Assembly (NCBI GenBank): GCA_023150475.1
Contig: JAKLKU010000002.1
Span: 186,001 to 250,000, forward strand
Length of the DNA: 64,000 nucleotides
Source of the DNA: Planctomycetota bacterium
Lineage (GTDB): Bacteria; Planctomycetota; UBA1135; GCA-002686595
Direction of reading: 5' to 3'
How positions within the stretch are numbered: the first letter of the stretch is position 1; each line of letters opens with the position of its first letter. The position numbers were made by a program, and so were the translations under genes. The notes beneath the pieces were generated by a model. The model was given only the letters and a program-made list of their open reading frames with translations. It was not told where the DNA came from and searched no databases. This document shows positions 13,518-28,791 of this stretch, in pieces.

Positions 13518-14765
13518 ATGGGTCCGAAACACTGGGGCACGAGGCTCGCGCTCGCCGTCGCGGCCGTCTCGCCGGCCGTGGCGACGCTGACGGTCTGCGC
13601 GTGTTCGCGCGTGCCGGACCCGCCCGAGATCGTCGTCGTCCGACCAACCGCGAGCGACCGGTCGACGCGCGTCGCAGAGATTCGCCAGCAGTACGACGAC
13701 GCGCACGAGCGCTGGCTGGCGACCCACCGCGCGCTGGGCGAGCGCGACGCCACGCGCTTCTCGGTGCTTCACCCGCCGCCGCGGCTGACGCCGTGGCTCG
13801 GGCTCCTGTGGGAGATCGTCGACGCTCGGCCGGACGACGACGCCGCGCTCGAAGCGGCGTGTGTCGTCGCCACGCGTCAGCGGCGTGGCGCGGACTGCGA
13901 GCGTGCGCTCTCGATCGCAGTCGAGCACCACGTCGAAAATCCGCGCATCGGTGAGTTGCTGCGCTCGCTCGACATTTCCGCCAGCGCATCCGCCGAGCGA
14001 CTGCTCGAAGCCGTGCTTGCACGGAACCCCGAGCGCGACGTGCGCGGCCTGGCGTGCCTGACGCTCGGCATCGGGCGGCTCGAGTTCGCCGCGTTGATCG
14101 AGCGCTCTCCGAAGCCCGACGATCTCGAGAGTTACGTCGCGGATCTCGGTTGGATCACCGACGCCGACGAGCGCTTCGAAGCCGTCGCACGCGCGCGCCG
14201 CACCTTCGCGGCCGACGCCGAGACGTTGCGAGCGTCCGCGGTCGCCGTGTTGCGGCGCGCCGTCGACGAGTTCGACGACGTTCCCTACTTCGACGAGACG
14301 ATCGGCGAGAAGGCGCGCGCGGCGCTGATCACAGCGCTCGAGCTCGGGGTCGGCCAACCGGCGCCGGAGATCGTCGGCGAAGACCTCGATGGCCGGCCGA
14401 TGAAGCTCTCGGAGTTCCACGGCAAAGTCGTCGTACTCGACTTCTGGGGCGATTGGTGAGCGCCGTGCCGGGCGATGTACCCGCACGAGCGGTCGCTCGT
14501 GGAACGCTTCGGCGACGAACGCTTCGCGATCGTCGGCGTGAACAGCGACGAGGACCGAGACGCGCTGCGCCGGCGCATCGCGGACGAACGCATCACGTGG
14601 CGCTCGTTCTGGGATGGCGGCAGCACAGACGGATCGATCTCGAAGCGCTACGGCGTGCGCAAGTGGCCGACGCTCTACGTGCTCGATCGCAGCGGCACGA
14701 TCCGCTTCCGAGAGGTCTACGGCGACGAGCTCGAGCGAGCGATCGAGACGTTGCTCGCCGAGTGA
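13518..14765 (+). CDS. Selenocysteine-containing lipoprotein with TlpA-like thioredoxin domain (TGA at 14457-14459 read as Sec)
   Basis: Predicted 415-residue thiol/selenol oxidoreductase anchored to a membrane. The start MGPKHWGTRLALAV leads to lipobox LTVC. Residues about 40-290 are helical, TPR-like. The thioredoxin domain begins at GVGQPAPEIVGEDLDG, and its first beta strand VVVLDFWGDW is followed by TGA, then APC. In every normal TlpA/ResA homologue this position is the first Cys of CxxC, so the site reads U314-A-P-C. The frame continues for 102 codons with the expected later features: FAIVGVNSDED, the cis-Pro loop KWPTLYVLD, and a final helix before TGA at 14763. An 11-bp hairpin follows the internal TGA. 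The alternative of a nonsense mutation is unlikely given the exact position and a second example at 26688. Confidence 0.88.
14461..14491 (+). promoter_or_regulatory. Candidate bacterial SECIS hairpin after the TGA codon
   Basis: The stem starts two bases after the TGA. CGC (14461-14463) pairs with GCG (14489-14491), CGUGC (14464-14468) with GCACG (14483-14487), and GGG (14470-14472) with CCC (14480-14482). C14469 and A14488 are bulged. The apical loop is 14473-14479, CGAUGUA, with a G at its second position. This gives 11 pairs in the coding sequence where SelB-dependent recoding elements lie. The UGA-to-loop distance of about 13 bases is near the short end of known spacing. GC-rich DNA makes chance hairpins common, so this is supportive rather than proof. 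Confidence 0.6.
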
Positions 14766-25862: not shown

Positions 25863-26501
25863 GGGCGAGCCACTTCACCGCGCGCGTCGCTGGAGCGCAA
25901 CGTGGGCCGTTCCGCGGGGAGAGACGGACGATCGCGAAGGACGCGCCATGCGCGGCGCGCGAGTCGCACCGTGCACACGGCGGCCGTGCGCGTCACGCGA
26001 TGGAACTGCCTCGTTTCGTTGGACAGGAAATTTCGCTCGGGTCGCAACCCAAAGAGCCCACGTCGGTCTTTGCAGGAAGCCGGTTCGTCGGGACTGCGAG
26101 CCGGAGGCACGTCGCGACGGCCAAGTCCGGCATGTCGGGCTCGCGCGGCCCCGCCTCGCCGACGTCCTTGCCTCGCGCGGCCATCCATCCCGCGACGCTC
26201 GAAGCGCGCGTCGACCGCGACCCAGGGAGTCGCCGCACGGAACGAACCATGGCATCTGGCGCGCGCGCCAGAAAACCGCGCGCCAGCGCTCACGGAGGCC
26301 GAATTCCGAGCGCAACCAAGCGAGGCAGTTCCGTCGTGGTGCGGAAATGTAAGGCCCACGCAACGACCGGCCCGATCGCTCGCGCCGCGGCGTCGACGCG
26401 CCGACACGGTGGCCGCCGCCTCGCACGGCACGGACCTGCGAGGAACTCCGCGAGCTCTGCTAGACTCGCTCGGTCTTCATTCCCGACACGAAAGGACGTC
26501 C
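25863..26501. other. 639-bp intergenic region with no supported gene
   Basis: It lies between two divergent genes and probably holds both promoters. An open frame from an ATG near 26001 (MELPRFVGQEISLGSQPKEP) can be read but shows no domain, and the opposite strand is also open. The base composition is slightly less GC-rich between 26000 and 26120 than around it. Confidence 0.55.
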
Positions 26502-27479
26502 ATGAAGCTCAGCCGAATCTGGCTGCCGCTCCTCGCGCTCGCGGCGCTGCACGCGCCCGTCGTCGCGCAAGGGATCGGCGGCACGATGCCGGCGGTCGTC
26601 GAACTCGAAGGCTACTCGCAGACCAAAGCGAAGAGCTTCGAAGAGTTCCTCGGTCGCGCGGTGCTCGTCGAGTTCTTCGCCTATTGGTGAGGCCCCTGCG
26701 GCTCGTCGGTCCCCCACCTCAACGAACTGCAAGAGCAGTATGGCGGGAAGGGACTGACGGTTCTCGGCGTGACCGATGAACCCCAAAAACTCACCGAAGA
26801 TTGGGTCGCGAAGAAAGGTGCGAAGTACGCCTACGCGTACGACAAGGGCGGGAAGCTCTCGAACTTCTTCGGCGTCAGCGGCATCCCGCACGCCGTGTTG
26901 GTCGACGCGACCGGCAAGATCGTCTGGCGCGGTCACCCCGCCAGTCTCGACGGCAAGGTGATCGAAAAGGCGCTCGACGGTGCACTGCCGCTCCCGATGT
27001 GGGAGTGGCCGGCGTCGGCGAAAGCGGTGCGCGCCGCGGTCCAGAAGCAGAACTGGGCAGACGCGATCGCGGCGGCGGCGAAGGTCTCGGAAGCCGACGG
27101 CGGTCCGACGATCGCGGACGCGCTGAAGCGGCTCGTCGCGGGACGCGTGGCCAAGATGAAGGCGGACCTCGAGGCCCGCAACTTCTTGGGAGCGCAGGAT
27201 GCTGCTGCGGCGCTCGCGAAATCGCTGGGCTCGTTGCCGGAGAAGGCCGAAGCGGACGCGGTGCTCGCCGCGATCAAGGCCGACAAGGAAGCTGCGAAGG
27301 TCATCAAGGGCCAACAGCAGATCCGCAGCATCCGCGAAGCGAACCCGTCGAAGCGCAAGGAGATCGACGCGGCGATCGAGGACTTGAAGAAGATCGCCAA
27401 GGACCTGCCCGACACGTTCGCGGCCACCGAGGCGAACGCGCTGATCGAGGCGCTGATCGACAAGAAGCGCGCGAAGTGA
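26502..27479 (+). CDS. Selenocysteine-containing exported thioredoxin-like protein (TGA at 26688-26690 read as Sec)
   Basis: Predicted 325 residues. A signal peptide (MKLSRIWLPLLALAALHAPVVAQ) precedes a TlpA/AhpC-TSA-like thioredoxin fold. The strand AVLVEFFAYW is followed by TGA and then GPCGSSVPHLNELQ, so the active site reads U63-G-P-C. The frame continues 263 codons to TGA at 27477 with the rest of the fold: LTVLGVTDEPQKL, the cis-Pro loop VSGIPHAVLVD, and GKIVWRGHP. The final 150 residues are a Lys/Ala-rich helical domain. It shares little with the Sec lipoprotein at 13518 outside the active site. The ATG at 26502 follows GAAAGGACGTCC. A terminator follows at 27509. Confidence 0.88.
26706..26757 (+). 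promoter_or_regulatory. Candidate SECIS-like structure after the second TGA
   Basis: UCGGUCCC (26706-26713) can pair with GGGACUGA (26750-26757), 8 pairs including one G-U. It encloses the hairpin ACUGC-AAGA-GCAGU (26726-26739). The inner loop lies about 40 bases from the TGA, longer than usual for bacterial elements. UGAGG (26688-26692) can also pair with CCUCA (26717-26721). The fold is less convincing than the first gene's and needs comparative support. Confidence 0.35.
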
Positions 27480-27508
27480 CTCATCGCGACTCGCGCCGAG
27501 TCGCAGCA

Positions 27509-27540
27509 GACGGCCCGTCGGACCGATCCGGCGGGCCGTC
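27509..27540 (+). terminator. Terminator after the second Sec gene
   Basis: GACGGCCCGTCGG (27509-27521) pairs with CCGGCGGGCCGTC (27528-27540) with one G-U pair, and CCCGTTT follows. It lies 29 bp after the stop and 49 bp before the next start. Confidence 0.75.
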
Positions 27541-27588
27541 CCGTTTCCGGAGCGCTCGGTTACACTCCGAAGCTCAGCCCCAACGGAC

Positions 27589-28791
27589 ATGGACTCCCGC
27601 CGCGGCCGCTGGCTCGCGCTCGCCATTTCGAGCGCCGTCTCTCTGCTGATCCTGTGGTTCGGCGTGAAAGTCGTTCGTGACCGCCAGCAAGGCTCGGTGC
27701 TGATGCAGCACGGCGACTTCTCCGAGCCGGTGGATCGCGCAGGCGCGCGGAACGCCGGCGACGCGTTGGCCGGACGGGAGCTCGACCCGGAGGATCCGCA
27801 GCGCTGGCGATTCCATCTCTCGGATGCGGAAGTGGAGAAGTTCTTCGCGCTCTCGAGTGATACGCGACTCGTCAACGACCCTTGGACCGCCACGCGCTTC
27901 GTGCCGGGACTGAACGATCGATTCGGGTGGCGCGAGCATCCGGACGGTGAGTTCTGGTTCCGGACGAACGGCATCGGCCTTCGTGAAGATGGCGAACTCG
28001 CGAGCCCTCCCAACGACATCCGCATCCTGGTCGCAGGCGACTCGCATACGTGCGGCCTTTGCAACAACTCGGAGAACTTCTGCAGCGAACTCGAGCGCAA
28101 GCTCGGCGCGCGTCGTCCGGGCAGGTCGATCGAAGCGCTCAACACCGGCATCGGTGGCTACCACTTCCTGAACTACCTCGGCACGCTCTATCGCTTCCGC
28201 TCGTTCGAACCGCAGGTGTTCGTGTGCACCATCTTCGGCGGCAACGATTTCACGGAGTTCTACTGGCTCTACTTGCACTTCACTCAGCGGCGACCGCCGG
28301 CGGGAACGGGCAAGCAGTACAGGAGAATCCAAGAGGCGGCCAGTATCTCGCCGGACGCCTGTGGCCAAGGACTGGCGGCGCTCGACTTGTTGCGCAACTA
28401 CCCCGACGAGCGTCGGATCATGGTGTTCGGCGCGCTGCAGATGTGCCTCGAGATGCAACGCGCGGCTGCGGTGCGCGGCACCGACGTCGTCTTCGTGCAC
28501 ATCCCCTCGCCGTTCGAGTTCCAGTGGAAGAAGCCCGAAGCGCGGTACGTCCGTGCGCGCGACGCCCTCGGACTCGAGGACGAGGACTTCGAGATCCTCA
28601 GCGACCTCTCGAACGAGTTCTTCGCCGGACTGCGCGCAAAGGGTCTACGCGTGGTCGACATGCGGTCGCGCTTCGCGGCCGAGCCCGAGCCGCCCTACTG
28701 GCGCGCCGATTTCCACATCAACATCCGCGGCCACGAGCTGATCGCCGACGAGCTCACGCCCGTGATCGACGAACTGCTCGCGCAGGACTGA
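27589..28791 (+). CDS. SGNH/GDSL-like hydrolase, membrane-anchored
   Basis: A 400-residue protein with an N-terminal hydrophobic segment (LALAISSAVSLLILWFGV) likely to anchor it. SGNH blocks are visible: block I VAGDSHTCG with nucleophile Ser, a Gly block near NTGIGGYHF, block III IFGGND, and block V DFHINIRGHELIADEL with the catalytic Asp-x-x-His. Such enzymes deacetylate or deacylate cell-surface polysaccharides and lipids; the substrate is unknown. Its last 38 bp overlap the convergent M16-like gene. Confidence 0.85.
   Translation: MDSRRGRWLALAISSAVSLLILWFGVKVVRDRQQGSVLMQHGDFSEPVDRAGARNAGDALAGRELDPEDPQRWRFHLSDAEVEKFFALSSDTRLVNDPWTATRFVPGLNDRFGWREHPDGEFWFRTNGIGLREDGELASPPNDIRILVAGDSHTCGLCNNSENFCSELERKLGARRPGRSIEALNTGIGGYHFLNYLGTLYRFRSFEPQVFVCTIFGGNDFTEFYWLYLHFTQRRPPAGTGKQYRRIQEAASISPDACGQGLAALDLLRNYPDERRIMVFGALQMCLEMQRAAAVRGTDVVFVHIPSPFEFQWKKPEARYVRARDALGLEDEDFEILSDLSNEFFAGLRAKGLRVVDMRSRFAAEPEPPYWRADFHINIRGHELIADELTPVIDELLAQD

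Follow-up and report, generated by a model that had tools for sequence, protein, structure and literature searches.

An in-frame TGA very likely decoded as selenocysteine in a planctomycete TlpA/ResA-like gene, with a displaced mRNA element in two parts as its probable SECIS

Described selenoproteins and the gene studied here

The prokaryotic inventory in the available part of a 2026 review (PMC13188914) includes UxxC thiol-disulfide isomerase-like proteins (cd02966) and Redoxin (PF08534) among its selenoprotein families. The same part gives a rule for the bacterial SECIS (bSECIS), namely a loop of 3-9 nt with a G in the first two places, an upper stem of 4-16 pairs, an energy of -7.5 kcal/mol or lower and a distance of 16-37 nt from the UGA, and adds that some genes do not fit it. 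Selenoproteins have been reported in two other planctomycetes (PMC4807772); these share with the present case the phylum, full selenocysteine (Sec) machinery and several redox selenoproteins, and the available portion of that paper makes no mention of a displaced SECIS. The word planctomycet does not occur in the main texts of PMC13188914, PMC9312934, PMC5029168 and PMC12013277. A search of the open literature, with subscription papers mostly outside it, found no report of a displaced bacterial SECIS or of the gene family described here.

The gene lies in a stretch of 64,000 nt (the window, which is the whole of the DNA analysed) from the Planctomycetota bacterium assembly GCA_023150475.1, contig JAKLKU010000002.1, forward strand 186,001-250,000. 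An initial annotation had noted an in-frame TGA at the catalytic position of a thioredoxin-fold gene, and reading the frame directly bears this out: the frame starts with ATG at 26502, has its in-frame TGA as codon 63 and ends with the stop TGA 27477-27479, the residues around codon 63 being ...VEFFAYW-TGA-GPCGSSVPHLNELQ... The long frame after the TGA is thus real, although it holds 262 sense codons and not the 263 first counted. The features are collected in Table 1.

Table 1. Features of the target gene and of the first TGA gene in the window. Signed positions count from the U of the UGA.
Feature	Position in window	Strand	Evidence
TlpA/ResA-like predicted selenoprotein CDS, TGA codon 63 read through, 325 residues	26502..27479	+	Sequence; Redoxin PF08534 64.1 bits (cut-off 26.6)
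Predicted signal peptide, residues 1-23, MKLSRIWLPLLALAALHAPVVAQ	26502..26570	+	By eye; AlphaFold pLDDT <50 for residues 1-20
Thioredoxin-like (TlpA/ResA/DsbE-type) domain, about residues 30-157	26589..26972	+	Pfam; 4nmu_A TMt 0.79, 3gl3_A TMt 0.85
5' strand of predicted alternative helix, -6..0, pairing with +84..+90 (26772-26778), which would mask the distal hairpin	26682..26688	+	Folding; weak covariation
Active-site motif W-U-G-P-C	26685..26699	+	Cys at U63 in 10 close full-length aligned homologues
Putative Sec63 codon (in-frame TGA)	26688..26690	+	TGA in 190/214 family genes
Predicted mRNA spacer arm, +17..+70	26705..26758	+	Helix scan, folding, bridging-pair counts
Candidate SelB-binding SECIS (distal hairpin), +71..+94; stem of 9 pairs, U bulged at +89	26759..26782	+	Helix scan, covariation, folding
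Apical loop C-G-U-G-A of distal hairpin, +80..+84	26768..26772	+	Fits the bSECIS loop rule in the available part of PMC13188914
C-terminal all-helical domain, residues 171-324	27012..27473	+	AlphaFold model (Cys at the Sec position), mean pLDDT 89.5
First gene, in-frame TGA in W-U-A-P-C; the window's second Sec candidate	14457..14459	+	Motif search; AhpC-TSA match
First gene, predicted proximal hairpin, +7..+30, usual SECIS place	14464..14487	+	z -1.21 against codon resampling (modest)

The target is predicted to encode an exported TlpA/ResA-like protein of thioredoxin fold. Its N-terminus has a hydrophobic stretch ending VVAQ (read by eye only), and AhpC-TSA is matched above the Pfam cut-off (58 bits, cut-off 26), as is Redoxin. 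The AlphaFold model, with Cys replacing Sec, has a pTM of 0.79. By sequence and by fold the nearest solved structures are ResA and DsbE, and export, if the prediction for the target is right, would be common to it and to the ResA/TlpA/DsbE oxidoreductases. It differs from these in having Sec for Cys and an extra C-terminal domain, and it scores far under the NCBIfam cut-offs for ResA, DsbE and TlpA (59.6 of 170, 46 of 123.15 and 40 of 230 bits). NF041054, WAxxUGC_long, is ResA-like too and carries a Sec motif in its name, but the target reaches only 44.4 bits against its cut-off of 300 and has U-G-P-C rather than U-G-C. With the UxxC selenoproteins of PMC13188914, in the part available, the target shares the thioredoxin fold and a Sec in place of the first Cys of the CxxC; unlike them, its family has a C-terminal helical domain of its own and is spread through planctomycetes. 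As predicted from its sequence, the protein is a further UxxC redoxin, and so of a known kind.

Two further features were seen at the locus. A GC-rich inverted repeat, ACGGCCCG ... CGGGCCGT, lies at 27510-27539, shortly 3' of the stop (found by eye), and is possibly a terminator that has no T run. An antisense open frame of 563 codons (26460-28151, minus strand) spans the gene and is likely to be a by-product of high GC.

The TGA codon across the gene family

A protein search with the target returned 122 homologues, of which 120 were compared. In 99 of these the protein starts at query residues 69-107, just past the Sec site, as is usual for gene callers at a TGA; one starts at 54, and 20 reach the N-terminus. 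At position 63, ten close full-length homologues have Cys in the alignment.

The codon itself was then read from genomes. In a collection of named genomes all 21 loci have TGA at the Sec codon, these being MAGs titled Planctomycetota, Planctomycetia or planctomycete, and in three cases only bacterium. Within the order of the window's genome, 127 of 154 genomes match the family at E 1e-25, and at least one in-frame TGA is present in 136 among the 150 matches listed; in a sample of the phylum 171 of 392 genomes match at the same E value. Two sets of genes were aligned by codon. The first, from the window's order together with two genes from named genomes outside it, has 131 distinct matches with TGA in 123, TGC in 5, TGT in 2 and GAG in 1; one of the TGC matches was spurious and partial and was dropped, leaving 7 non-TGA genes. 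The second, of 86 genes from outside the order, has TGA in 69, TGC in 11, TGT and TCC in 2 each, and GAT and GAC in 1 each. Two of its TGA genes (L279 and L280) duplicate genes of the first set and were removed from the final counts, and four further genes identical to another over +0..+97 were retained.

Together the sets hold 214 family genes from the same phylum, with TGA in 190, TGC in 15, TGT in 4 and other codons in 5, while TAA or TAG is found at this codon in none of the 214. These are family genes and not strict orthologues, because several genomes carry more than one copy. With TGA in 190 and the other two stops never used, chance is excluded, and the view of the initial annotation that mutation or error is implausible holds well. 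The conservation is as decisive for Sec coding as a sequence can be. Elsewhere in the gene TGA is scarce: among 186 aligned rows, further TGA codons occur 18 columns past the Sec codon in one gene (L201) and near the C-terminal end in L201 and L222.

Some genes depart from the general pattern. The second in-frame TGA of L201 (G008:C36:45330-46307) is the one 18 columns past the Sec codon. Three entries that are apparently one gene (L086, L100 and L158) have an in-frame TAA seven codons upstream of the Sec TGA, by error, decay or some other cause. In five genes the site codes for something other than Sec or Cys, although the rest of the protein is kept, namely L297 (GAT), L308 (GAC), L352 and L361 (both TCC) and L184 (GAG).

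RNA structure downstream of the TGA

For the RNA analysis, controls were made by resampling synonymous codons so that the amino acids and each gene's codon habits were preserved. Across the 123 TGA genes of the first set, synonymous choice is strongest at codons +28, +26, -3, +27 and +1 from the TGA (z 11.2, 9.1, 8.6, 7.7 and 6.3), and codons past +30 have a mean z of 0.64 and a maximum of 5.3. An unbiased scan for four-pair helices between -45 and +107 in the same genes ranks first a hairpin of +73-79 with +85-91, loop +80..+84, with z up to 15.4. Its five core pairs (75-89 to 79-85) are all present in 72 of the 123 genes, and at least four of the five in 80. These 80 are here called group A, and the 43 that lack the distal hairpin group B.

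In group A the distal pairs are formed in 98.4% of cases, against 74.2% in the resampled control, and their covariation is 0.979 against 0.156, with none of 300 controls as high. The change is seen in whole codons, codon +25 appearing as AUC, GUU, CUC or AUU with codon +29 as GAU, AAC or AGC, GGG, or AGU. RNAalifold run on group A gives the distal hairpin and nothing else. A separate covariation test used 40 of the 65 distinct distal hairpins: 98.2% of cells pair, 36 cells are changed on both sides against 12.3 when shuffled and at most 8 in slid registers, and the covariation score of 0.391 compares with 0.209 for shuffles and no more than 0.156 after sliding. By two other measures of this test, the number of pairs changed on both sides (2) and the further pair types, the 40 hairpins are not above the shuffles, nor in the first case above a slide of +1. 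Covariation and codon choice together show that the RNA is under selection.

The loop opens with N-G-U in all 72 full hairpins of the first set, and is mostly CGUGA or CGUGU. In the target, folded from +3, four core pairs have probabilities of 0.97-1.00. Its stem of 9 pairs with one bulge, at -11.7 kcal/mol for +66..+98, falls within the bSECIS rule for stem and energy, as CGUGA does within that for the loop. The spacing does not: the apical loop is 77 nt from the UGA, twice the distance that the rule permits (16-37 nt), and a conserved spacer arm lies between. No accepted bacterial-type SECIS hairpin was found near the target TGA, and a search with Rfam models, at gathering as well as permissive thresholds, matched no known SECIS within the gene. 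A covariance model built on the distal hairpin (R1) was run on the genes that lack it and on other Sec genes. In the window the target, a training member, comes first with 27 bits, and +71..+93 of the first gene (14528-14550) second with 18.7 bits; this is not claimed as a distal hairpin, as it forms only three of the five core pairs. In group B the model did not usefully pick out the proximal hairpins.

Other helices above control in the group A scan, +38-42/+47-51, +22-25/+62-65 and +16-19/+68-71, are all nested and make up one arm. The target folded from +3 has this arm, with the hairpin directly after it. For pairs bridging +10..+32 with +52..+72, group A has an expected number of 13.1 and group B one of 1.8, where controls that preserve the hairpin codons have 6.4 and 4.1 respectively. 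The arm was first found in the first set, and is present in all 22 genes of the second set that have the full hairpin (mean 14.7 bridging pairs; 14.6 against 6.2 in the control when the two duplicates are included). The remaining second-set genes have few such pairs: 1.9 in 6 TGA genes with four core pairs, 2.6 in 39 with fewer, and 3.6 in 17 non-TGA genes.

A two-part element was defined as at least 8 bridging pairs with a hairpin probability of at least 0.5. So defined, the element occurs in 96 of the 190 TGA genes and in 2 of the 24 without TGA (p 5e-5). Once the genes are clustered at 65% identity the figures are 62 of 127 and 2 of 21 (p 6e-4), and for the second set by itself they are 22 of 67 and 1 of 17 (p 0.03). 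These p values are too small, because the thresholds were chosen after seeing the data and the sequences are related. Codon-resampled genes have it in 49 of 960 cases (5%).

We must then ask whether the target might be a selenoprotein with an unrecognised canonical SECIS just past the UGA, in which case the distal element would have some other role, such as pausing, folding or mRNA stability. The stem in question (+9-13/+24-28) has a G-G-U-C loop, which we take to resemble that of E. coli fdhF. Many members allow such a UGCGG...CCGCA stem to be drawn, and the pairs involved (+0-4/+29-33 and +9-13/+24-28) number 313 against 297 in the codon control, with none of 500 controls equal to it; in group A proximal pairs are at 0.672 against 0.621 (0 of 300). 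The available part of PMC13188914, moreover, describes the bacterial SECIS as immediately downstream. Against this, the proximal region has no excess of energy (-385.7 against -396.3 in the control) and no excess of covariation in group A (0.041 against 0.055), and the drawn stem was rejected as the main element for that group.

Another comparison is between genes with and without the distal element. In group B a strong hairpin tends to occupy the usual SECIS position, examples being GUGGGG-CGUGG-CCUCAC with its loop at +19, AGGUGC-AGUUCC-GCACCU at +20 and CACCU-CGUUG-AGGUG at +32; 17 of the 43 best local hairpins of this group are of these kinds. Measured against the codon control, the proximal folding-energy z in the first set is 0.05 for group A and -0.96 for group B (p 1e-6), and the 7 non-TGA genes have 0.15; in the second set the values are -0.25 (28 genes) and -1.08 (39 genes; p 1.3e-3); and over all TGA genes it is 0.15 with the two-part element and -1.07 without it (p 1.7e-14). 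A strong proximal hairpin (z -1 or lower) is found in 7 of 96 genes with the element and 48 of 94 without, and so is seven times rarer where the distal element is present. Proximal and distal z anticorrelate over the 190 TGA genes (rho -0.42; -0.43 clustered at 65% identity, p 5e-7), all these p values being inflated because the genes are closely related. Both signals are present in 7 of the 190 TGA genes and neither in 46. The two places thus tend to exclude each other, and the target itself, with a proximal z of +1.8 and a distal z of -2.2, is of the distal kind. On a single FastTree tree (130 proteins, midpoint rooting, no support values) at least 9 changes of the A/B label are needed, against a mean of 35.8 with shuffled labels, and 11 changes of the two-part label. 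We consider a hidden canonical SECIS unlikely for the target, but the most serious of the alternatives.

A second alternative gives the distal hairpin no link to Sec and sees in it a by-product of the codons and amino acids chosen in the conserved I-I-G-V-T-D-E segment. The non-TGA genes bear on this from both sides. The five-pair core is kept in 5 of the 24 (L182, L322, L349, L351 and L353), two of which (L182 and L353) have the whole two-part element, and these five may once have been Sec genes. When the second set is taken by itself, TGA genes show no enrichment of the core hairpin (22 of 67 against 4 of 17, p 0.57), and two Cys redoxins of the target genome reach four of the five pairs. 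The codon-resampled control, however, preserves the amino acids and gives far less, and the arm separates TGA genes from most of the non-TGA cases. As the true family offers only a small non-TGA control (24 genes), a paralogous and mostly Cys family with the same G-V-T segment served as the larger one; none of its 27 readable genes, three of which carry TGA, forms the complete core at the fixed offset. A by-product would on this evidence be decidedly improbable.

It is worth adding that in this paralogous TlpA-like family (WATWCGPC), the three genes with TGA at the first Cys (L255, L256 and L258) apparently gained Sec separately.

The bases around the UGA may also affect the hairpin. Its probability in the target is 0.06 when -6..+2 are included in the fold and 0.97-1.00 without those nine bases, and the group A mean rises from 0.48 folded from -6 to 0.86 from +3 and 0.94 from +15, with resampled controls at 0.10-0.24. 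We put forward masking by the alternative helix of Table 1 as a hypothesis only, because its covariation is confined to one weakly covarying pair, -4/88. As a main structure this long-range helix was rejected, the unbiased scan having ranked the local hairpin first, and it is kept as a possible masking form.

Selenocysteine decoding and its significance

The genome that contains the window (5.94 Mb in 85 contigs, 91% complete) was surveyed for three thioredoxin-fold families and four families of the Sec machinery. All four of the latter are above their cut-offs: tRNA-Sec (72.7 bits by Rfam, with ARAGORN concurring, anticodon tca), SelA (497 bits, cut-off 267.9), SelB (337 bits across 644 residues, cut-off 242.25) and SelD (326 bits, cut-off 125). 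The initial annotation had named a genome lacking such machinery as what would speak against Sec, and this genome has it. SelA, SelD and tRNA-Sec lie within 10 kb on one contig (C9). SelD (L066, G000:C9:28812-29762) has an in-frame TGA of its own, in the N-terminal segment CAG-U-AGK, and is a Sec candidate too.

Among the AhpC-TSA matches of the genome, 5 of 23 have one in-frame TGA; the Thioredoxin_8 and Thioredoxin searches, with TGA in 3 of 13 and 3 of 14 matches, recover three of them and add no others. The five comprise the target, the first gene (...LDFWGDW-TGA-APCRAMYPH...), a relative of the first gene on contig C66 with the motif W-U-G-P-C, a Bcp-like peroxiredoxin with TPGU and a peroxiredoxin-like protein with UPTC, so that with SelD the surveyed families hold six Sec candidates. 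The proposed survey for W-TGA-xPC, run here by family, thus returned three W-U-x-P-C proteins: the target, the first gene and the C66 gene. In the window the pattern TGG-TGA-NNN-CCN-TGY occurs three times, the third occurrence (minus strand, 3564) being by eye not thioredoxin-like. The target and the first gene had been called unrelated; they are distant, but both match PF00578. Routine use of Sec in redox proteins, also proposed at the outset, is supported, but not its limitation to exported ones, since the TPGU and UPTC peroxiredoxin-like proteins are among the candidates. Proximal z is -1.2 in the first gene and -1.4 in the UPTC gene. It varies with the stretch folded in SelD (-0.6, or -1.5 over a longer stretch) and in the C66 gene (0.0 or -2.4), and the Bcp-like gene shows neither signal (+1.8 and 0.1).

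TGA conservation and this machinery together argue that the target is a selenoprotein, and its TGA is very likely decoded as Sec, as far as can be judged from sequence. Readthrough by a non-Sec route, with another amino acid or a near-cognate tRNA, is a further alternative; the full Sec machinery and the Cys found at the site in relatives oppose it, as does the use of TGA to terminate the target itself and its near absence elsewhere in the gene, and we regard it as very improbable. A lone in-frame stop in one draft genome could mark a pseudogene or a sequencing error, a reading that is refuted by the same TGA, with a long frame after it, in many genomes and several families, and has a negligible chance of being right.

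The reading we prefer is that the UGA is very likely decoded as Sec with the help of the displaced two-part mRNA element, which probably acts as SECIS; taken as a whole we hold this with good, though not full, confidence. When the UGA is in the A site, the next 14 nt or so (+3..+16) are in or near the mRNA channel. On the target mRNA, a ribosome that places UGA 26688 in its A site would occupy this stretch, the arm would fold as a spacer and stack on the short hairpin, and SelB with Sec-tRNA would bind the C-G-U-G-A loop, leading to insertion of Sec63. The arm would thereby bridge the gap, so that a SelB-binding hairpin 77 nt downstream would come to lie at roughly the contour distance found in relatives whose hairpin starts near +13. 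More weakly, before the ribosome arrives -6..0 may pair with +84..+90 and hide the hairpin, which would then form only as the ribosome reaches the UGA. Once the protein is exported, W-Sec-G-P-C would serve as the active site of a thiol-disulfide reductase or isomerase.

We further hypothesise that in bacteria a SECIS can sit far from its UGA, with a conserved arm of about 54 nt presenting the SelB hairpin at the canonical contour distance, that the UGA-containing masking helix is a ribosome-gated switch, and that the family has repeatedly swapped distal and proximal forms (9 or 11 label changes on the one tree); this wider proposal we place only slightly above even. The target element would have action at a distance in common with archaeal and eukaryotic SECIS, if it does act. 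Those lie in 3' untranslated regions (PMC13188914, available part), whereas the target element lies within the coding sequence, and the SelB of its genome is of the bacterial type. If it works in the way we infer, the two-part RNA element, which the initial annotation had not noticed, would be a new form of SECIS.

The family is also a mis-annotated selenoprotein family, 99 of the 120 compared database entries being fragments that begin past the Sec codon. That the SECIS lies close to the UGA is central to the accepted account of Sec decoding in bacteria and is built into the model used to search for it (PMC13188914). If our reading is true, widespread natural rule-breakers beside rule-keeping relatives would show what SelB measures, namely contour or path and not nucleotide count, and would explain why some bacterial selenoproteins are overlooked.
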